Below, piece after piece: positions 22,360 to 35,507 of a stretch of DNA of 47,527 bases (positions within the stretch are counted from its first letter, which is position 1; every line of letters starts with the position of its first letter). The stretch is from an uncultured Verrucomicrobiales bacterium (GTDB lineage: Bacteria > Verrucomicrobiota > Verrucomicrobiia > Verrucomicrobiales > Akkermansiaceae). The notes beneath the pieces are model-generated. The model worked only from the letters and a program-made list of their open reading frames with translations. It was not told where the DNA came from and did not search any database. The position numbers were made by a program, and so were the translations under genes. Location of the stretch: assembly GCA_937928425.1 (NCBI GenBank), contig CALFVL010000019.1, positions 1 to 47,527 on the forward strand, given 5' to 3'.

Positions 22360-22929
22360 GTGCCCCGAAGAAAACCACAGAAGGCTACTTGGCCCGATAT
22401 GATGCCCTCACCCGTTAGGAAAAAATCGGGCGAGAAATCGTCATCACTAGAGCGGGTCTTCGCTGCTGAGGAGGGTCCTCTTCTACGTTACGCGTTTTCC
22501 TTGCTTGGGCGTCGAGAAGTCGCTGAAGAGGTGGTTCAGGATGCTTTCTTAAAGCTTCATGAGCACTGGGATGAAGTAGAGATTCCCCGTGCTTGGCTCT
22601 TCCGCTGTGTGCGGAACTTGGCTCTAAATTTCCTCCGTAAGTCAAAGAAAGAGTCATTGGGTGAAAAGGTGGGAGAAGAGGTCTCGGCGCATCCACAACC
22701 GGACGATGAGCTCGGGAAGATGGAGGCAGTAGGCCTCGTCCAGATGCTCATCTCGGAGATGAACGAAGAAGATCAAATCATGCTCCGAATGAAATACTTC
22801 CAGCACCTCAAGTATCACGAAATCGCAGAGCGCTTAGAAGTGAGTGTGGGGAATGTGGGCTACCGCTTGCATCACCTTCTTAAGGACCTCGCAGAGCGCT
22901 TGCGCAAGCTCGGTATTCATCACTTTTAA
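22360..22929 (+). CDS. ECF-type RNA polymerase sigma factor
   Basis: A 189-residue sigma-70 family factor with region 2 (LLRYAFSLLGRREVAEEVVQ, then AWLFRCVRNLALNFLRK, about 43-94) and region 4 (EMNEEDQIMLRMKYFQHL and the helix-turn-helix YHEIAERLEVSVGNVGYRLH, about 130-175). Regions 1 and 3 are absent, as in ECF factors. The start is a GTG with AAAGGA about 10 bases upstream, one of the few Shine-Dalgarno-like sites in this window. It is followed after 15 bases by a membrane-anchored VWA protein that may be its anti-sigma partner. It probably directs transcription of its own operon; I could not identify its target promoter. Confidence 0.93.
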   Translation: MPRRKPQKATWPDMMPSPVRKKSGEKSSSLERVFAAEEGPLLRYAFSLLGRREVAEEVVQDAFLKLHEHWDEVEIPRAWLFRCVRNLALNFLRKSKKESLGEKVGEEVSAHPQPDDELGKMEAVGLVQMLISEMNEEDQIMLRMKYFQHLKYHEIAERLEVSVGNVGYRLHHLLKDLAERLRKLGIHHF

Positions 22930-22944
22930 GCTCCTCAGAAAACT

Positions 22945-25770
22945 ATGAACGATGATTTACAATCCTACATCGAGCCCGAGTTAGAAGCTCGGATTGTGGC
23001 TCTAGTTTTAGGAGAGGCGTCAGCCTTTGAGGGAGAGGAGTTGAATAAGCTCATTACTGAGCACGGTCATTTACAAGCTTACCGGAAGAGTCTGGAGGAA
23101 GTGCATGAACTTCTGGACCAGTCCTATCAGGAAGTGAGTTCAGAGGACTGGAAGCTATCAGCTGAGAGAAGGGGGCGAATTTTTTCTCAGTATACCAGCG
23201 CACCGCAGACTGGGTTGAGAGTGTCTAGGGAAGAGGATAAATCGGCGTGGCTAAAACCTAGTCTCATTCTCGCCTGTGCTGCGTGTTTCATCTTGATCTT
23301 TGTATTTGCGGCTTTGTTAAAAACACCGGAAGGAAAAGACGATCGTCTACTGGTCGCCTATACGGCGAGGCGAGAGAAGGAAAAGGAAAAGGCCGTCCTC
23401 GCGAAGCTTGACAAAGAGATATTAGATCAGGAGGAAATCGTTCTTGGTCAGCGAAGGGCGCTGACCGGCCTGATTCAGGAATATGGAATTCCGTATTTTG
23501 ATGGAGGAAGGTCGAATCCACTCGGTGCGCGTGAAGAAGATATTTCTAAGAGGGCTCAAGAGAGATTGGGGGAACATAGAGAGGAAAAAGAAGAGGTAGA
23601 GAGTGAGTTAAAAGACCGGATCGCGCGGGCAGATGGTGGGGATAGTGGACATTTACGGACTAAGCTGGATCGCCTTAATCGACAAGAGGCTCGCATGGGA
23701 GGCTTAATAGAAGATGTCCGTGATGATACGATCGAACTCTCGCTAAGGCAGCACGCTTACACACAAGCTAAGGATGAGTATATGGACTCACGAGAGCGCC
23801 TCGAGATCCTGAAGAAACAGCAAGAAGAGCTACGCGCTAGTTCTAGACAGCGTTTGGCAGCTCCTAGTGAGCCGAGACAGGTAGTGAGTCCACCTTTAGA
23901 AACGAGTGAGTCTCTTGCTGCGCTCGATGATCCGTTCGCTAGTTCCGAGGAGCCTCAAAAGAAGAAAATAGTATCATCGCACTCTAGTAAAAAGCCTGCG
24001 TATCCGGCAAGTCCTGCCGCTAGAGTCATCGCAGCGAGTGGGAGTAAGATACCCAGAACAGAAGTCCCGCTGCCCTCGACTGATTTTTCTAATGGTGAAA
24101 ATTTTGGCGAAGGCTGGGGTGATGGCGAACCGAAGAAAAGAGAGAACCCAAGCTCGCGCCCGAAAGTGAGCCATGGTGAGAGGTTTAAGTTTAACAAGAA
24201 GGATGTCCTTCCAAGAGATCCCGATCAGGAGGGGGCGGGTAGAGATGCACGTCGATGGTTGGAACGTGACTGGGAAACAGTTGTTCCGCCAAGTGGGGGC
24301 GAGTTGCCACCTTCAAGCGCCTTGTTATCCTTGGAAGATACTTTGAATGTTAGATCGAAGGAGATAGCCGTCTCAGAGTCAGACTCCTCAGGTGTTTCGG
24401 CAAAGAAAGAGTTAGCGCATAGTCGTCAAAGGAGGATGGATTTTGAAACGCCTGTTTCTGAGAGGAGCGATTCTACTTTTTCGCTGAATGTGAGTGATGT
24501 GTCGTTCAAATTGGCGAAGGCCGCGTTAGCAGAGGGGGCATGGCCGGAGGCTGGAAAAGTGCGGGGAGAGGAATTTGTCAATGCGCTGGATTATGGTGAT
24601 GCGCGACCTAGCCAGACTGAAAAGATGACTCAGGTGATCGAGCAGAGTGCTCATCCATTTATCCCACAGCGTAACTTAATGAGAATCGCCATGACTACGG
24701 CCTCGCTGGGGCGAAATACACTAACGCCTCTGCGGCTGACGATCGTATTAGATCAGAGTGGGTCGATGGAGGGCGGAGAGCGTGCAGAGAGTGTGAAGCG
24801 TGCCTTCGCTTTACTAGCAGCTCAGTTGACTCAGCGAGATGAGGTGACCTTGATCGGATTTGCTCGTAAACCTCGTCTTTTAGCAGAGCGTTTAAGAGGG
24901 GATAAAGCTCATGAATTGGTGAAAATTGTTTCAAATCCACTCACGGAGGGGGGGACGAATTTAGAAGAGGCCCTTTCTCTGGGCGCAAAAATGGCACGGC
25001 AGCAATTCCTACCAGAAGCGCAAAATCGGGTCATTTTAGTGACTGATGGAGCTGCAAATTTAGGGGAGGCTTTGCCAAAAAATTTAGCCAGTCAGGTGGA
25101 GTCGATGCGCGGTGGCGGGATCGCCTTTGATGCCTGTGGAGTGAGCGCAGACGGGCTGAATGATGAGATCTTGAGTGCCTTGGCGAAGCAGGGTGATGGG
25201 CGCTACTATTTTGTCGATCGCCCGGCGGATGCTGATGCTGGTTTTGCCCGACAGATTGCGGGAGCTCTCCGCCCAGCGGCCAAGAATGTGAAAGTGCAGG
25301 TGTTGTTTAATCCTGAGCGCGTGGAGAGCTTTAAGCTTTATGGATTTGCGCAACATCAGTTAGAGCGAAAAGACTTTAGGGATGATGCGGTGGATGCAGC
25401 TGAGATGGCAGCGGAGGAAAGCGGGGTGGCATTGTACCACTTTAAGCCACTCGCGGAAGGACGCGGGGAGGTGGGCACGGTATCGGTGCGTTTTTTAGAT
25501 CCTGCGAGTGGGGAGATGGTAGAGCGGACATGGAACATTCCTTATGAGCCTGAAGTGACTCTTTTTTCAGAAGCTAAACCCGGACTGCGTTTAGCGGCTG
25601 CGGCAGGACTCTTTGCTGAGAAGTTAAAAGAGAGTGCAGTGGGAGAGAGGGTGGAGCTGAAGAGGCTGAGACAAGAGGTGGAACGCTTGCAGCCGAGCTT
25701 TGGTTCTTACGAGAGCTTCCGAGAATTTAAAGCGATGTTGGGATGGGCGAGTGATAGGCTTGCAGATTGA
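22945..25770 (+). CDS. YfbK-type VWA protein with candidate anti-sigma N-terminus and coiled coil
   Basis: A 941-residue one-span protein. The first 105 residues are cytoplasmic (LEARIVALVLGEASAFEGEE..., helical, without a zinc motif) and could bind the sigma factor encoded 15 bases upstream. The membrane span is at about 107-127, followed by a charged coiled coil (about 140-310) and a Ser/Pro-rich linker. Next are the YfbK-type pre-VWA domain (FSLNVSDVSFKLAKAAL, about 515-590) and a VWA domain with an intact MIDAS: Asp603, Ser605 and Ser607 (DQSGS), a Thr near 671 (EGGTN) and Asp701 (VTDGA). A C-terminal YfbK-like domain closes it. Anti-sigma function is an inference from order and topology. 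It lies 46 bases ahead of the giant protein gene. Confidence 0.88.
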   Translation: MNDDLQSYIEPELEARIVALVLGEASAFEGEELNKLITEHGHLQAYRKSLEEVHELLDQSYQEVSSEDWKLSAERRGRIFSQYTSAPQTGLRVSREEDKSAWLKPSLILACAACFILIFVFAALLKTPEGKDDRLLVAYTARREKEKEKAVLAKLDKEILDQEEIVLGQRRALTGLIQEYGIPYFDGGRSNPLGAREEDISKRAQERLGEHREEKEEVESELKDRIARADGGDSGHLRTKLDRLNRQEARMGGLIEDVRDDTIELSLRQHAYTQAKDEYMDSRERLEILKKQQEELRASSRQRLAAPSEPRQVVSPPLETSESLAALDDPFASSEEPQKKKIVSSHSSKKPAYPASPAARVIAASGSKIPRTEVPLPSTDFSNGENFGEGWGDGEPKKRENPSSRPKVSHGERFKFNKKDVLPRDPDQEGAGRDARRWLERDWETVVPPSGGELPPSSALLSLEDTLNVRSKEIAVSESDSSGVSAKKELAHSRQRRMDFETPVSERSDSTFSLNVSDVSFKLAKAALAEGAWPEAGKVRGEEFVNALDYGDARPSQTEKMTQVIEQSAHPFIPQRNLMRIAMTTASLGRNTLTPLRLTIVLDQSGSMEGGERAESVKRAFALLAAQLTQRDEVTLIGFARKPRLLAERLRGDKAHELVKIVSNPLTEGGTNLEEALSLGAKMARQQFLPEAQNRVILVTDGAANLGEALPKNLASQVESMRGGGIAFDACGVSADGLNDEILSALAKQGDGRYYFVDRPADADAGFARQIAGALRPAAKNVKVQVLFNPERVESFKLYGFAQHQLERKDFRDDAVDAAEMAAEESGVALYHFKPLAEGRGEVGTVSVRFLDPASGEMVERTWNIPYEPEVTLFSEAKPGLRLAAAAGLFAEKLKESAVGERVELKRLRQEVERLQPSFGSYESFREFKAMLGWASDRLAD

Positions 25771-25816: not shown

Positions 25817-28800
25817 ATGATGAAATTTTACGCTTTGTTTTTACTGCTCTTAGGCACTCTGATTCCTGCTCAAGAGGTCATAAAGCCCCTTCCTAGAGGA
25901 GCTGATTTTTTTATCGGTGCACACGCTGAAGAGATGATGCAGGAGCCTGAGGCTAGGGATGGGCGCGTGATCATCGAGACTCCACGCCCTAAAGTCGAGG
26001 TGCCGCTTTTTTACCGTACTCACTTAGGAGTGAAGGCGGATTTCAGGGCAGAGTATTTGCTGGAAACTGCCGAGGTGGAATTCACGGTCATTCAGGGTGA
26101 AGCTTCGCTTTTCTCCGTGGAAATTTTAGGGCCAGCCTCGCTTTCTAAGGTGGAAGGAGATCAGGTGAAGTCGTGGTCTGTTAGGCGAGAGGGGCAGGCC
26201 CGTTTTCTTGATCTAGTTCCTGCGGATGTGGAAGTGAAGTCGCTCACCGCGAAGCTAGTTTTTAGGCGTAAGGTGAGCGAGTTTCCGAAAGAGTTTAAGC
26301 TGACTACCTTTGGAGCTGCTGCGGCATCAGGCTTTTCTGCGACTTACCTCTTATCTCATGCCGAGGGGCTAGAACATCAGCTCCTTTCAGCGGAGGGGGC
26401 ATTGACCTTGAAGTGTGGGGTGGGGGAGGACCGCCTAAGTGCGGCAGGGTCGGCGCATCTTAGGGCAGAGGTGGCTCTATCGGCAGTGCAGGCTCTTCCG
26501 CTCGAGCTCCGTGATCTCCGCTTAGAGGGAGAGCTCCTTCCGGAGGAGGGAGCGATGAAGTTCCGTCTTCTTGCTGAAGCTCACGTGACAAGTGAGGAGC
26601 CTGTCTCTGTGCCCATTTTAGGCGGTCGAGCTGCTCCGGTGGCTCCAGTATGGAGTGAAGCTTATCAGCTGAAACTGACTTCGGAGGGTTATCAGATGGA
26701 GTTTCAGAAAGCTGGGGTTCATGCAATTGACCTCGAGTTTGTCACAGCGATTGAGTTGGTAGACGGGTGGAAGAAAGTGAACTTTTCTGTGCCAAGCGGA
26801 GTGGTCGTGCCAATTGGCCTGAAGGGCCTAGCGCAAACGGCGGTGTTCGAGAAGGCTTCCGTAGTGAGTCCTTTTCAGGTGGCAGGAGGGCACCGTGCCT
26901 TTCTTCCAGCAAGTGGGATTTGTCAATTTTCATGGCGACCGGAAAGGGAGTCGAGTGAGGGGGAGTTGTGTTATACGAGTGAAGCGATGGAGGAGATTTC
27001 GGTGGGAGCAGGCCTGTTAGAACAAGCGACTCACTTGAACATTAAGACCTTACAGGGGGCGTTGGAGAGCTTAAAGATACAGCTAGCGGGAGTGGGAGAG
27101 GTTCTGGCGGTGGAGGGTGAGAATATCCTTAGTTGGCAAGTGACTGAGAAGCGGGTGTTAGAGATTCTGCTGACCCGAGCGGTGACTAAGAAGGCGGCGT
27201 TTATGATCCGTTCGCAGGCGGCCTTGGCGGCTTTCCCGGTGAAGAGCGAACCTCTGCGGCTGACTCCCTTAGGAGGGCTGCGACATTCGGGACATTTCCG
27301 AATCTATAACCGAGGTGCGGTCCGAATAGAACTGAAGAATGCGGCTGGGCTTACCCAACTTTCACCTAGGCAGTATCCAGAGGTTGCTCCCTTGCCAAAG
27401 TCTCCACGCCAAGTGTTTCATTACCGTTATCCGGCAGCACAGCGTTCTTTCCAAGTGGCGGCGGAGCGAGTGAAGCCAGAGATTAATGTCTCGCAAGTTT
27501 TAGCCTACGAATTTACTGAAACGGACCGAGTTTTACGAGCTGATCTGGAATTAGAAATCCGAGAAGCGGCGATTCGTGAATGGTCATTTTATGGACCTGC
27601 TGATTACTCAGTGGTCTCGGTCACTGGAGCTGATGTGGCTGATTATGTGATTTCTGAAGCGAAAGAAGGGCGGCGCCGACTGAAAGTGATTTTTAGACAA
27701 GAGGTGATAGGGCGCCGTCTGGTGAAGGTGCATTTAGAGAAAAATGAGGCCGCTCAGGTGGGCGCTTGGAGCCTGCCTGGACTGTCTTTTCCAGGAGATA
27801 CGAGTGTGGGCGGGGAAGTGGGTGTGAGTGCGGTGCCGGGCTTCCGAGTGAGTCCAGAGAAGGTGGAGGGGCTGGCCGAGATGCCTCTAGCACGACTTCT
27901 CAAGCGTGGTAAAAATGTCCAGCAGGCCTTTCGGGTTAAGGCGGAGAATTGGAGTGCAGAAATGCGAGTGACGGCACTGAAGCAGAATATCCAGGCAGAC
28001 ACGTTTCATCTCTATTCGCTGAAGGAGGGAAGGGCGTATGTCTCTGTTCTTTTTAACTTTTTTGTCACAGGGGCTCCGGTGCATGAGTGGCGGTTTAAAC
28101 TACCTGAGGGGGGTGAGCATATAGAAGTGAGTGGCTCTGATGTCCGCGATCATCGTCTCGTGGAAGGAGCGCTTGTGGTGCCGCTGCACCGTCCTGTAAT
28201 GGGAGCTTATCAACTTTTAGTTACTTACGAACAAGAGGCCGAGTCGTCGCTAAGACTCGCTGAGTTGGCGGTGCAAGCTGTCCAGCGCGAGTCTGGTTTC
28301 GTGCAGGTGGTGAGTCCAGGTCAGGTGGAGATGAAGGCAGCTGTGGAGAATTCTTTACAAGAGATTGATCCAGTAGAACTGCCGAAGGAATATCAGCTGA
28401 TGAGTCATTCTCCGACTTTAGGGGCGTGGGCGTATCAGCGGCGGCCTTTTCGCTTAGAGAGAGAAATCTCGTGGCTTAAGAGAGGGGATCTGGAGTCACG
28501 AGTGGTGGAATTTGCCAAGCTTTCAAGCCGGATTTCCCGTGATGGAGGGGTGGTAACGCTTGCGGACTTTGATGTGCGCGTGCGTAGTTCACGTGCGCTT
28601 GAGCTACAAGTCCCTGCAGATTTACAGGTGGATGAGGTGAAGGTGGATGGGAAGGTGGTGACGGTTCGAGAAGCTGGAGAAATGCGCCTTATTCCTCTGG
28701 AGGATTCAGTGGGTCCTCATTCTCCGCTACGTGTCTCGGTGCGCTCTAGTCATGCTGGTGAGATGGAGGGGGAAGAGCTGAATCTTCTGGCCCCGAGAGT

Positions 28801-31800
28801 GGCTGGTGCTACTCAGTTTACGACTCGCTGGGAGGTGAAGTCAGACACTGGATATCAATTAAGGTCGGTCTCTTCTGGGACGCTTCAATTGCTGAGCCCA
28901 TTTTTGATCGGGAACGGGTTTTCATGGATCGAGGAAGAAGCGTTGTTTCGTTTTTCCTTACTCGTGTTTCTCTGGCTGGGTGGGTCATTGCTGATGAGAG
29001 TGCGTGCGGGAGTGGCGATGCTGGGGCTTGTACTCGTGGGGGTCGCTGCCGTGGGGGCTTTCTATCTCGCAGTGCAGGGGGTGGACCGAGAGGAAGTTCC
29101 CCCAGAGGTTTTAGTGTATGCTGCTCCGGTGAAAGCGGCAGATGATCCACTGGGGGTGACGGTGGTTCATTTTAAAGAGGGGAAATTGAGCCATGGAGGA
29201 AGCGCTAGTGGGGCTTTTGGACTTTCTCTGCTCTTATCAGTAATGGCTTTCAGGTGGAGGAAGCATAGAGGTCTTTTATTCTCTCTGGCGGGTGGTGTTT
29301 TTTGTTTTGCCTTGTTGTCTCTTTCGGGCGGGGCGCCTTGGTTTTTCGCTTTGTTGGGAGTGGGGATTTCAGTGCTTTTTTTCAGGGGTATGAAAGGTGC
29401 CTTAGCAGCATGGCGTGATTTTTCAGGAAAAAATGATGGTGATGGTGCTGACGATGATGGGAGAGATGCTGGAGCAAAGGGTGGCCCTAGTGTGGGGATA
29501 GTCAGTTTACTTATGGTAGGTCTGATGGCGGTTTTTGTCTCGGGAACTGCACAGGCTAAGGCCTCTAGTATTCCGGAGTGGAAGGCGGGAGATTCTTTAA
29601 CTGAAGAGTGGGATATTAGAGGTCAGTTTTTACGGGCTAAGGGGGAGTTTACCTTGAGTGGGAGAGCGGGGGAGCGCTTTCTCCTTCTGAAGGAGCCAGC
29701 AACTTTGACGAGCTTTAAGGGTGAAGGGGTGAAGGTGATTACGGAAGGAGGAGATTACTTAGCGGTGCTCACCCGCGAGGGGCGTTATTTAGTAGAATTC
29801 TCGTATCAGCTAGCGATTGCCGATGCCACGAAAGAGCTTCCTTTGTTAACAGGAATGGCGGCGGTGCGGAAGTTAACGGTCCGTTATGAAGAGAGTGCAT
29901 GGTCGATTGATTCGAGCTCGGCAATCCGTAAAAGAGTCCTGAATGAAGAAGGCAGTGGGGCGATTCTTAGTCTAGCTCCAGAGGAGGATGTGAGGATTTC
30001 TTTAAGTCCAAGGGAGCGTGATGTGAGCACGGAGGTGAGCCGCTATTATGTGGAGATGGACCATCTCTTTATCCCAGGCCCAGGGGTGGTCGATGGAAGA
30101 CATCTCGTGAAGGTGAGACCGGCGCAAGGGCTGGTGGGGCAGTTGTCCTTCGTGGTGCCTACCGGATTTACGGTGAGTGAAGTCCGAAGTGAATTAGTGG
30201 GTCCGTGGCGCTTTAATCCTTCCACTCAGATCTTGACGGTGGGCTTGAGTCTTAAGCAATCTGAGCCCTTTACGATCGAGGTGGAAACTCAGCGGGCACT
30301 TGCCGAACTTCCGGCAGAGTTGTCTCTCTCTCCGATGAGGGTGAAGGGGGCGGCAGGAGAAGTGGGGAAACTTGCTTTAGCCTTCGGTGAGGAGGCTCAA
30401 TTAGAGAGCGATGAAGTGGAGGGAATGTCCCTAGTAAATGTGAGGGACTTTGGAGATGAGCTTTTACCTCGTGACCGAGATGGGCAAGCGACCGTATCCT
30501 TGCAGAAGGCTTATCGTTACGCTCAGGAGGAGGCTGCTTTAAAGTTGAAAGTGGCTCCAGTCTCTCCAGAGGTGCGAGTGGACTCGCTGCAGCGGCTGTC
30601 TCTCGGAGAAGAGCGAGTGGTTCTGGCTGCTGAGTTAGCGGTGGAGATCACCCGCGCCGGAATTTTCCGACTTAGTTTCCCCTTGCCGAGTGGCTATGAG
30701 GTGGAGTCGTTAAGAGGGGATGCCTTGAACCACTGGACGGAGGTGGGAGAAGCTCCGCAGCGGATGGTGGTGATGCACTTAAATGGGAAGACGATGGGCT
30801 CTCAGAAGTTTTCATTCGTTCTTAATGCGGCCTCTCCTAAGCTGGAGGCTGAGAGCTGGCAGGTGCCTAAAATTTCTCTCCGGGAGGCTAGGCGTGAGGT
30901 GGGGCGTTTACTCATTATTCCAAGTCGCGGGGTGCAGTTGAGTGTCATTCAGAGGAAGGATCTTTCTGCACTGGATCCGCGTGAATTAGGAGCAATGCAG
31001 GTGGGCACTTTAGCTTTTAGGCTTTTGCAGGGGGCTTGGGAACTTGGGCTAAAGGTCGATCAGTTAGCTCCTTCTTTAGCTGCGCAGAGCTTGCATGATG
31101 TGGAGCTGCGGGAGGGGCGGTCGAAGTCGCGGATCGATCTAAGTTTAGAAGTAGACTATGCCTCGATCCGGGAGTTGGAAATGACGTTACCGAGTCTATC
31201 AGAGCTTGACTCTCAGACTGTGAGGGTCTCAGGGGCAGAAGTACGAGATATCCTACACAGCGGAGGGAATCAATGGAAGATCCGTTTTAAACGCCGAGTG
31301 ATAGGAAAGGTCCCTCTACGAGTGGAGTATGAACAAAGCGAAAATCAGGCGATCTTTCATACCGCTGTGTTTCCTGAACTACGTCAGCAAGAAAGTTACT
31401 TAGCTTTCAGGCCGGGAGCACGACTGAAGTTAGACCCACTTCATCGCTCTGTCTGGACTGAAGCGGACTGGAATTCTCTCCCTAAGGCTCTTTATCAAGT
31501 CGACCGCCGGCGGGCACCAGCTCTTTTCATACGGACTAAGCAGCCTAGTGTCGGAGTTCCAATCAGCTGGAAGGAGCATGAGGTGGCGGCTGCGGCAAGT
31601 GTGCGTGTGACTGGGGGCTCTCTGCATACTGTTTTATCGTCACATGGAGAGGTCGTCAGCCAGGTGGAGCTGCGTCTAGAGTGTCGTCAGCGTGGATCTC
31701 TCCTTCTGAACCTCCCACCAGAGAGCCGCCTTTTTGGCGTCTTTGTGAATGAAGAGAATGCCCTCGTGGTGAAGGACGGTGATTCTTTTCGCTTTCATGT

Positions 31801-32671
31801 GAGAGCTGATGCGGGGGGCAGTGAAGCGAGTGTGAAATTTACTTACGTCACTTCACTCTCCGATAAGTCTCTGAGTAAGCTTACCCTCAAGGCATTCAAG
31901 ATTGGTGAGCCTTTAGAAAACGTCATTTGGACTGTTTCTTTACCAGAGGGCTATTCCTTAAGGGGCGTGGAGGGTGACTTAGACTTAGAAGATATTTTAA
32001 AGGCAGGTGAGCGTGGTCAGGGGGGATATCGTCATTTGGTAGAACAGCGTAGTGGTGAAAAGAAAAGGGCTTCGCTCAAGCGTCTGGATAAGGCGAGTGC
32101 TTTCTTGAAAGCAGGTGAGCAGACCAAGGCGAACCAGACTTTAGTGCAAGTTTACAATCAGTCTAATCTCGATGCCGCGAGCCATGAAGACGTCAGAGTT
32201 AAGGTGGAGAACTTGGCGAAGCAGCAAGCGGTTATGGGGCTCAATACCAGACGTCAACGCCTCTATCATGAGAATGTGTGGGATGAAGGGAGGGCGGATA
32301 AGAGTCAGATTGCTGCTGCGACTCGCGCCAATCCGATCTTCTCCGGCGAGCTTAACTTCGGGAACGAAGATTATGTCAATACGATCAATGGGAATGACGC
32401 AGAGGTGAACCGCCAGTTAGACCGAATTGCCGCAAAATGGGTGAGGAATCAACGGCTTACAACCGCGGTGCGGCCTCAGATCGATCCCGTCATTCTGCCG
32501 TCAGGAGAGTTACTCGTGTTTAGCCGGAAAATGCAGATTAATGGGAACGATGCTTTAGAGCTCCGTCTCGCTGTGGAAAATGAGCAAGATCAAGCCTCCG
32601 TCTTAGAACGATCATGGATTTTACTACTGATCGGAGTCTCCCTGTTTCTTCTCTGGAAGTTCCGGAAGTAA
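25817..32671 (+). CDS. giant duplicated extracytoplasmic protein of unknown function (about 2,284 aa)
   Basis: I do not recognise a family. The N-terminal signal peptide is MMKFYALFLLLLGTLIPAQ. Two extracytoplasmic halves of about 1,000 residues each flank a block of membrane spans (about 28957-29385) and a second signal-peptide-like stretch ending AQA (about 29500-29560); a C-terminal span (SWILLLIGVSLFLLW) ends the protein. The halves are homologous and collinear, offset by about 1,030 codons: HYRYPA with VKPEINV against AYRYAQ with VSPEVRV, and VSGSDVRD against VSGAEVRD. A beta-rich repeat with the core LPxGxxVxxVxG occurs about eight times. Upstream in-frame starts at 25700 and 25793 are rejected because the first overlaps the VWA gene and both precede the signal peptide. 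Third gene of the sigma-VWA operon. Confidence 0.85.
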   Translation: MMKFYALFLLLLGTLIPAQEVIKPLPRGADFFIGAHAEEMMQEPEARDGRVIIETPRPKVEVPLFYRTHLGVKADFRAEYLLETAEVEFTVIQGEASLFSVEILGPASLSKVEGDQVKSWSVRREGQARFLDLVPADVEVKSLTAKLVFRRKVSEFPKEFKLTTFGAAAASGFSATYLLSHAEGLEHQLLSAEGALTLKCGVGEDRLSAAGSAHLRAEVALSAVQALPLELRDLRLEGELLPEEGAMKFRLLAEAHVTSEEPVSVPILGGRAAPVAPVWSEAYQLKLTSEGYQMEFQKAGVHAIDLEFVTAIELVDGWKKVNFSVPSGVVVPIGLKGLAQTAVFEKASVVSPFQVAGGHRAFLPASGICQFSWRPERESSEGELCYTSEAMEEISVGAGLLEQATHLNIKTLQGALESLKIQLAGVGEVLAVEGENILSWQVTEKRVLEILLTRAVTKKAAFMIRSQAALAAFPVKSEPLRLTPLGGLRHSGHFRIYNRGAVRIELKNAAGLTQLSPRQYPEVAPLPKSPRQVFHYRYPAAQRSFQVAAERVKPEINVSQVLAYEFTETDRVLRADLELEIREAAIREWSFYGPADYSVVSVTGADVADYVISEAKEGRRRLKVIFRQEVIGRRLVKVHLEKNEAAQVGAWSLPGLSFPGDTSVGGEVGVSAVPGFRVSPEKVEGLAEMPLARLLKRGKNVQQAFRVKAENWSAEMRVTALKQNIQADTFHLYSLKEGRAYVSVLFNFFVTGAPVHEWRFKLPEGGEHIEVSGSDVRDHRLVEGALVVPLHRPVMGAYQLLVTYEQEAESSLRLAELAVQAVQRESGFVQVVSPGQVEMKAAVENSLQEIDPVELPKEYQLMSHSPTLGAWAYQRRPFRLEREISWLKRGDLESRVVEFAKLSSRISRDGGVVTLADFDVRVRSSRALELQVPADLQVDEVKVDGKVVTVREAGEMRLIPLEDSVGPHSPLRVSVRSSHAGEMEGEELNLLAPRVAGATQFTTRWEVKSDTGYQLRSVSSGTLQLLSPFLIGNGFSWIEEEALFRFSLLVFLWLGGSLLMRVRAGVAMLGLVLVGVAAVGAFYLAVQGVDREEVPPEVLVYAAPVKAADDPLGVTVVHFKEGKLSHGGSASGAFGLSLLLSVMAFRWRKHRGLLFSLAGGVFCFALLSLSGGAPWFFALLGVGISVLFFRGMKGALAAWRDFSGKNDGDGADDDGRDAGAKGGPSVGIVSLLMVGLMAVFVSGTAQAKASSIPEWKAGDSLTEEWDIRGQFLRAKGEFTLSGRAGERFLLLKEPATLTSFKGEGVKVITEGGDYLAVLTREGRYLVEFSYQLAIADATKELPLLTGMAAVRKLTVRYEESAWSIDSSSAIRKRVLNEEGSGAILSLAPEEDVRISLSPRERDVSTEVSRYYVEMDHLFIPGPGVVDGRHLVKVRPAQGLVGQLSFVVPTGFTVSEVRSELVGPWRFNPSTQILTVGLSLKQSEPFTIEVETQRALAELPAELSLSPMRVKGAAGEVGKLALAFGEEAQLESDEVEGMSLVNVRDFGDELLPRDRDGQATVSLQKAYRYAQEEAALKLKVAPVSPEVRVDSLQRLSLGEERVVLAAELAVEITRAGIFRLSFPLPSGYEVESLRGDALNHWTEVGEAPQRMVVMHLNGKTMGSQKFSFVLNAASPKLEAESWQVPKISLREARREVGRLLIIPSRGVQLSVIQRKDLSALDPRELGAMQVGTLAFRLLQGAWELGLKVDQLAPSLAAQSLHDVELREGRSKSRIDLSLEVDYASIRELEMTLPSLSELDSQTVRVSGAEVRDILHSGGNQWKIRFKRRVIGKVPLRVEYEQSENQAIFHTAVFPELRQQESYLAFRPGARLKLDPLHRSVWTEADWNSLPKALYQVDRRRAPALFIRTKQPSVGVPISWKEHEVAAAASVRVTGGSLHTVLSSHGEVVSQVELRLECRQRGSLLLNLPPESRLFGVFVNEENALVVKDGDSFRFHVRADAGGSEASVKFTYVTSLSDKSLSKLTLKAFKIGEPLENVIWTVSLPEGYSLRGVEGDLDLEDILKAGERGQGGYRHLVEQRSGEKKRASLKRLDKASAFLKAGEQTKANQTLVQVYNQSNLDAASHEDVRVKVENLAKQQAVMGLNTRRQRLYHENVWDEGRADKSQIAAATRANPIFSGELNFGNEDYVNTINGNDAEVNRQLDRIAAKWVRNQRLTTAVRPQIDPVILPSGELLVFSRKMQINGNDALELRLAVENEQDQASVLERSWILLLIGVSLFLLWKFRK

Positions 32672-32740: not shown

Positions 32741-32817
<77 letters not shown>

Positions 32818-35000: not shown

Positions 35001-35507
35001 GTGCAAGAAAGATCGGAGAAGTTAGGTCGTTTTAGGTCAGTGAAATTAGCGGCGAGTCGGGCTGACCTCTCACAAGTTTTTCGTCTTGTTTATGTGAGCC
35101 GGGCGACTGCGCTTTTTGGTCCTGAGGAGTTACAGCGGATCGGTGAGGAGTCGATCGCGCGGAATGAGAAACTGGATGTGACCGGAATCTTGGTGGTAGA
35201 TCAGGGGCGTATTCTACAAGTTCTGGAGGGTGATGAAGATGTGGTAGTGACCTTATTCGCTAAAATTTCTAACGATCTGAGGCATGAGGCGGTGCAGAAG
35301 GTGGTGGCCTCTGTTCAGAAGAAACGTTATTTAAGTAGTTGGATTATGGCGAGTGGGAATGAGGACCGGGTGCCAGCGGCTCTGAGGAAGGACTATTTAC
35401 GGATGTATAAGCGTTTTACGCAAAATGGGAGTTTTGCAGATATTTTATCTGAGGAGGTCGAATTATTAAAAGTGATGGCTCTTTTTCGTGCTGTTCCGAT
35501 GAGTTGA
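35001..35507 (+). CDS. BLUF domain blue-light sensor protein
   Basis: A short 168-residue FAD-binding photoreceptor. All key BLUF residues are present, in AppA spacing with an offset of ten: Tyr31 (LVYVS), Asn55 (ARNEKL), Gln73 (ILQVLEG), Trp114 and Met116 (SSWIM). It should therefore show the usual light-driven hydrogen-bond switch. About 40 C-terminal residues, probably helical, follow the domain; there is no fused output domain, so it must signal through a partner. The GTG at 35001 is the 5'-most start; a GTG at 35040 would still leave the whole domain. No clear Shine-Dalgarno is visible. Neighbouring genes give no evident partner. Confidence 0.93.
   Translation: MQERSEKLGRFRSVKLAASRADLSQVFRLVYVSRATALFGPEELQRIGEESIARNEKLDVTGILVVDQGRILQVLEGDEDVVVTLFAKISNDLRHEAVQKVVASVQKKRYLSSWIMASGNEDRVPAALRKDYLRMYKRFTQNGSFADILSEEVELLKVMALFRAVPMS

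Follow-up and report, generated by a model that had tools for sequence, protein, structure and literature searches.

A giant protein of two homologous modules encoded in a conserved unit with an ECF sigma factor and a vWA protein in Verrucomicrobiota and Planctomycetota

Introduction

The closest published item found for the locus described here is a set of force transducers of the vWA/YfbK type in the PVC group. These proteins carry a transmembrane (TM) segment with an SHLS motif for a TolQ-type motor, and they are accompanied by tolQ- and tolR-like genes (PMC12204202). A second point of comparison is the pairing of an ECF sigma factor with a membrane anti-sigma protein, in which the sigma gene is followed by the gene of a protein that crosses the membrane once, with its N-terminus in the cytosol and a periplasmic domain. 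The window analysed here, a stretch of 47,527 nucleotides from an uncultured Verrucomicrobiales bacterium, encodes a unit of three genes that recalls both.

22360..22929, + strand: ECF sigma-70 family factor, 189 aa, first gene of the unit (Pfam Sigma70_r2 2e-13, Sigma70_r4_2 1e-11)
22945..25770, + strand: membrane vWA protein, 941 aa (Pfam vWF_A 7e-10, VWA 2e-13, YfbK_C 1.5e-21)
25817..32671, + strand: giant protein, 2,284 aa, two fused modules, ATG start

The first two genes follow the layout of the ECF pairs. Unlike in those pairs, however, the periplasmic domain of the second protein is of the vWA-YfbK_C type, an obligate third gene encodes the two-module giant, and the anti-sigma domain of the window's vWA protein is not formally recognised. 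No paper on a sigma/vWA/giant operon was found in the literature searched. The giant belongs to a protein family that ranks among the largest uncharacterised ones of Verrucomicrobiota and Planctomycetota, for which no name, domain annotation or literature was found. An earlier note on this DNA had described the giant and its two halves; the conserved sigma and vWA partners, an internal signal peptide, repeats of sub-domains and unfused relatives are added here.

Conservation of the three-gene unit

The order of the conserved unit is sigma factor, vWA protein and, third, the giant. A homologue of the sigma factor lies upstream of the giant at all loci with more than 6 kb of upstream sequence (55/55), and the vWA gene immediately precedes that of the giant wherever the locus extends far enough. 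The order is kept at 22-28% identity (loci L125, L128, L131, L134, L135 and L144).

The vWA protein consists of an anti-sigma-like N-terminus (residues 1-106), a TM segment at about 107-126, a coiled or variable region, and then vWF_A, VWA with its MIDAS, and YfbK_C. The MIDAS residues D603, S605, S607, T671 and D701 are kept in 65-66 of the 66 homologues, and the N-terminus ahead of the TM segment is conserved as LEARIVA.VLGEAS.FE..ELERL. Pfam did not recognise an anti-sigma domain in the window's protein; the N-terminus of one divergent vWA member matches zf-HC2, which is of the anti-sigma type, at E 0.002, below the curated cut-off. Partner lengths range from about 590 to 1,820 aa in the open reading frames seen, some of them cut by contig ends, and vary between the TM segment and the vWA domain. 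STN domains are found in signal-transducing secretin/TonB systems, and one partner (L058:1539-6548) carries an STN domain together with TPRs in this variable position.

As in the published force transducers, the vWA protein is tethered to the inner membrane, has a YfbK-like periplasmic domain and occurs in Planctomycetes and Verrucomicrobia. An SHLS-like TM motif, however, was present in 0 of 66 vWA partners, and membership in the TolQR-linked transducers was rejected on this count. No tolQ- or tolR-like gene was found among the neighbouring window genes scanned; the unit has a sigma factor and the giant in their place.

Our preferred reading, held at slightly less than an even chance, is that the giant provides the extracytoplasmic part, the periplasmic sensor arms, of a three-gene ECF signalling unit.

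Two homologous halves

The earlier note had read positions 25817-32671 of the + strand as a single frame of 2,284 residues made of two homologous halves at a constant offset of about 1,030 codons. The frame is real, and the homology of the halves was confirmed by blastp, by shuffling and by profile comparison. Half A and half B were joined by blastp in a single collinear alignment (397-1025 with 1421-2057, 22% identity, E 4e-16), in which the offset is 1,024 codons at the start and 1,032 at the end. The score of 68.6 bits compares with a maximum of 29.6 bits in block-shuffled versions of half B that kept local composition, 324 of 500 of which gave any match. Chance or composition as the source of the likeness was thus ruled out. 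The half-to-half profile test that the note had set beforehand was significant: 69 A halves aligned with 72 B halves at probability 100 and E 2.2e-41 over 759 columns. The first approximately 240 residues of A and the last approximately 200 of B are without a collinear partner in the other half. Selection on both halves, also proposed earlier, agrees with the finding that homologues at 22-65% identity retain the whole architecture.

Domain anatomy and topology

Hydropathy places a signal peptide at the N-terminus of the giant, a multi-TM stretch in mid-protein (about residues 1034-1240) and a TM segment at the C-terminus. Each half was modelled separately with AlphaFold2 (AF2; pLDDT 87 for both), and the models contain six beta domains in module A and five in module B.

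25817..25870, + strand: N-terminal signal peptide of module A (MMKFYALFLLLLGTLIPA), hydrophobic core 4-22
26000..26416, + strand: beta domain A1, copy of A3, no collinear partner in B (AF2; A1-A3 hhalign E 6.7e-26)
26420..26956, + strand: beta domain A2, partner of B1 (A2-B1 E 1.4e-6)
26960..27385, + strand: beta domain A3, partner of B2 (A3-B2 E 2e-13)
27398..27898, + strand: beta domain A4, partner of B3, long paired strands (A4-B3 E 1.9e-15; AF2)
27908..28360, + strand: beta domain A5, partner of B4 (A5-B4 E 2.8e-12)
28403..29176, + strand: A6, last beta domain of module A, partner of B5, like the N-terminal domain of M1 aminopeptidases (A6-B5 E 2.1e-17)
28916..29413, + strand: TM1-TM5 of module A, as a TM1-2 hairpin, two beta strands and TM3-5 (AF2 helices, hydropathy)
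29480..29563, + strand: TM6, internal signal-peptide-like segment (GGPSVGIVSLLMVGLMAVFVSGTAQAKA) at the module junction (hydrophobic core and AxA-type motif)
29579..30028, + strand: beta domain B1 (AF2 model; domain profile comparison)
30032..30454, + strand: beta domain B2 (AF2 model; domain profile comparison)
30470..30994, + strand: beta domain B3 (AF2 model; domain profile comparison)
31004..31492, + strand: beta domain B4 (AF2 model; domain profile comparison)
31514..32581, + strand: B5, last beta domain of module B, like the N-terminal domain of M1 aminopeptidases (structure match, AF2)
32600..32665, + strand: TM7, C-terminal TM anchor of module B, cytosolic tail WKFRK (hydropathy, AF2)

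Profile comparison of the eleven domains gave the collinear pairs A2-B1, A3-B2, A4-B3, A5-B4 and A6-B5, with E values from 1e-6 to 2e-17. Repeats were also detected by hhalign within module A (A1-A3 E 7e-26, A3-A5 3e-8, A4-A5 3e-9). Neither A1 nor the helical insert of B5 has a collinear partner. The last domain of either module is split by an insertion at an equivalent position. In A6 the interruption is the TM1-TM2 hairpin, after which two closing strands follow at about 29108-29176; in B5 it is a helical segment of about 150 residues (32018-32461, model helices 868-1015) with closing strands at 32507-32581. The B5 insert is TPR-like in some members, and TPR_2 matched 3 of 22 members of the giant family.

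The N-terminal signal peptide is conserved among homologues with the consensus MK..LL.LLL....AQE, and the positively charged loops of TM1-TM5 fall on the predicted inner side. Hydropathy and charge together point to a self-consistent topology in which arm A would lie outside, followed by TM1-TM5, a short acidic inner linker, TM6, arm B again outside, TM7 and a basic inner tail.

Fold resemblance of the modules

The absence of a named family, as the earlier note had it, was upheld: no significant match to the giant or members of its family was found among Pfam, NCBIfam and PDB sequence profiles. The matches that do appear, to TgpA_N, TPR and the like, are confined to single members or generic; TgpA_N, a multi-TM family, matched 4 of 16 members (best 4e-5). 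What follows is therefore a resemblance at the level of fold and not family membership.

The separately predicted halves match the same solved folds. Ost1/ribophorin I was the top Foldseek match of both (E 4e-11 and 7e-9), and the tandem luminal beta-domain fold of the Ost1 type was found in both by Foldseek and VIA (Z 14-16 over about 310-335 residues, rmsd 13-22 A). With an rmsd of this size, the match is one of domain by domain. The N-terminal beta domain of M1 aminopeptidases was likewise present in the predicted structures of both halves: A6 superposed on it with VIA Z of about 13-14 (rmsd about 4, about 158 residues) and B5 with Z 14.3 (rmsd 3.0, 148-158 residues). These shared matches, the matching order of strands and the profile alignment indicate that the two modules probably have the same fold; differing predicted folds were the second refuting outcome named in the earlier note.

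Ost1 itself combines a single TM segment with two luminal domains that are alike and rich in beta structure (PMC7226087). With its tandem beta domains and its rank as best structural match of both halves, it suggests another role for the giant, that of a periplasmic receptor for proteins or glycoproteins that holds secreted clients for modification or folding. We consider this role unlikely. The long-range superposition is poor, and the N-terminal domains of M1 aminopeptidases score equally well. No relation was found at the level of sequence, either by hmmscan of 16 and of 22 members for Ribophorin_I or by profile against PDB chains. The giant also differs from Ost1 in having five or six beta domains per module, two modules and another TM architecture, and no oligosaccharyltransferase gene adjoins it in the window.

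The M1-like domains, which superpose at 3-4 A over about 150-160 residues as the last beta domain of each module, and weak array-level Foldseek matches to alpha-2-macroglobulin and complement C5 (integrin alpha was also among the folds) could point to an enzyme or a protease trap. Such a function is very improbable. A motif scan of the protein found no HExxH, GxMEN or thioester CxEQ, and no catalytic domain was matched. A degenerate M1 peptidase was rejected for lack of a catalytic domain and zinc motif, and an alpha-2-macroglobulin-like trap for lack of the thioester. Members of the alpha-2-macroglobulin family without a thioester exist, so the absence of CxEQ alone does not exclude the fold.

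Unfused relatives and the origin of the fusion

Modules of the same family also occur in a second, paralogous arrangement, termed system II, at loci L020-L027, L136-L138 and L143. Here a single-module gene (about 1,120-1,300 aa) is followed by a gene of 1,170-2,900 aa that holds two modules in its longer forms. System II thus resembles the giant in its tandem copies, its varied fusions and a signal peptide kept at the fusion point. It differs in having three modules in two genes and no sigma or vWA neighbours, which indicates that such modules have a use outside sigma control. In a planctomycete (L139:7334-17884) the three modules are encoded by three tandem single-module genes, each with its own signal peptide, as an unfused form of system II. 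At L141:5488-14016 separate genes encode a B-like module (first) and an A-like module (second), in the order opposite to that of the fused protein; they are flanked by genes of the DnaK-type Hsp70 and arginine-deiminase types. At L126:2759-3493, about 8 kb from the giant, the helical C-terminal part of module B was found as a stand-alone copy of 245 residues.

In a FastTree phylogeny of 78 modules, the fused A halves (23/23, support 1.0) and the fused B halves (23/23, support 0.999) each group together, and the interim best tree from IQ-TREE shows the same grouping, without support values. Each clade spans Verrucomicrobiota and Planctomycetota. The separate clades place the A/B duplication before the fused family, in agreement with the old duplication that the earlier note had claimed. 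Genes 1, 2 and 3 of L139 group with the first gene of system II and with the N- and C-terminal halves of its second gene, respectively. Together with the tree, this placement indicates that two or more in-frame fusions of module genes took place. The succession from separate genes to fusion is read from architecture and not from the rooting of the module tree. The giant gene would thus have arisen by fusion of two tandem homologous genes for exported modules.

Among the sampled Verrucomicrobiota, no genome clearly holds both the fused system I and system II, for which a co-occurrence in only about one genome is expected; the planctomycete G297 seems to have both. No claim of mutual exclusion is therefore made.

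The module junction

The segment between TM5 and module B resembles a signal peptide (VGIVSLLMVGLMAVFVSGTAQAKA). In 72 homologues, a hydrophobic core was present at this position in 68 and an AxA motif in 40; in the giant, the candidate cleavage motif AQA/AKA falls at about residues 1247-1249. The same feature is seen at the fusion junctions of system II (for example AGTALLALLLVGAAApaqaqa in L138), and the unfused gene 3 of L139 starts with an ordinary signal peptide. A downstream signal peptide retained at each fusion point suggests, on sequence grounds, a polyprotein-like processing. With the signal peptide of the second gene kept as TM6, the precursor would probably be inserted as a single chain, and signal peptidase may cut it into two partner subunits. 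The fbcH gene of Bradyrhizobium, an in-frame fusion for cytochromes b and c1, offers a precedent: the signal peptide of the second product lies at the junction, and cleavage is experimentally known. Unlike in fbcH, the two parts of the giant are homologous to each other, and its cleavage is a prediction only.

It is nearly as probable as not that TM6 is a mere signal anchor left from the fusion and that the giant stays one chain. The topology is identical with or without cleavage, and TM2, which also runs from inside to outside, has AxA in 37% of members. Since TM2 also scores for a signal-peptidase-like site, the motif in TM6 is suggestive and not proof. Against an uncut chain, TM6 keeps its core short and outscores every other TM segment as a signal-peptidase site (AxA 53% vs 9-37% elsewhere; good site 82%) across two phyla, and the independent fusions of system II keep the same signal-like feature. 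The family shows clearly how tandem exported genes have fused repeatedly and kept the downstream signal peptide, and bacterial polyprotein processing can be tested in it directly from existing proteomes.

Proposed role of the giant

In the sensor model preferred here, the membrane vWA protein would use its N-terminus to retain the ECF sigma factor in the cytosol, and its vWA domain, with the MIDAS intact, would be placed in the periplasm. The giant would be exported and anchored in the inner membrane, with two periplasmic arms of about 1,000 residues each, built of repeated M1-N/Ost1-like beta domains; arm A would end in five TM helices and arm B in a single TM helix, preceded by a helical insert of TPR-like type. 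The arms may sense an envelope ligand, or a mechanical or assembly state, and through contact with the vWA domain the signal would lead to release of the sigma factor. The model is supported by the sigma factor at 55 of 55 loci and the unbroken linkage of the vWA gene, by the conserved MIDAS, and by the N-terminus, TM and periplasmic layout of the vWA protein. It is further supported by the signal peptide, TM block and C-terminal TM segment of the giant, by its lack of a catalytic motif, and by the match of both halves to protein-binding and scaffold folds.

Gene order would fit equally well if the giant were a mere target of the sigma factor, and this counts against a sensor. ECF factors commonly activate their own operon. 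In the strongest rival explanation, the giant is accordingly an output, a structural scaffold of the envelope expressed under the adjacent sigma factor, and the vWA protein is the sole sensor. The related modules of system II, which lack sigma and vWA neighbours, and the folds of scaffolds and arrays (Ost1, integrin alpha, alpha-2-macroglobulin) agree with such an output. The one-to-one and unbroken link with vWA protein and sigma factor across two phyla argues against it, as a mere target gene should have lost this linkage in some lineages. We regard a structural output as a real possibility that will probably not hold.

Taken at its broadest, the sensor model would describe a widespread envelope-sensing apparatus not described before, consisting of a sigma factor, a vWA anti-sigma protein and a two-arm receptor polyprotein that signal peptidase cuts at the internal signal peptide into two homologous subunits. 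In-frame fusions of tandem exported genes that kept this signal would have occurred two or more times, in systems I and II. In this complete form the proposal is speculative and on balance doubtful.

Distribution and genomic surroundings

More than 200 loci in Verrucomicrobiota and Planctomycetota make up the unnamed family to which the giant belongs. A scan of genome contigs with the single sequence of the giant returned no relatives, but an alignment-based search did find them, encoded by 211 stretches of the genome collection. Of these, 80 were kept for analysis; they come from Verrucomicrobiota (Akkermansiaceae, Verrucomicrobiaceae, Opitutaceae and others) and Planctomycetota (Rhodopirellula, Rubripirellula, Stieleria and others). 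The module was present in 48 of 241 sampled genomes of Verrucomicrobiota and 80 of 246 of Planctomycetota, counts that include system II. It was absent throughout the many sampled species of one genus of Akkermansiaceae (g3, probably Akkermansia). For these phyla, known for their unusual cell envelopes, the unit offers a candidate route of envelope sensing that can be tested in cultured strains, as loci occur in cultured groups such as species of Rhodopirellula, Stieleria, Haloferula and Rubritalea.

Downstream of the giant, a tRNA-Arg (acg) gene lies at 32741-32817 of the window, between the giant and the gene of a protein with six S1-domain repeats. The S1 gene is found downstream of the giant in close relatives only. 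Further downstream, at 35001-35507, the window encodes a small BLUF blue-light sensor protein.
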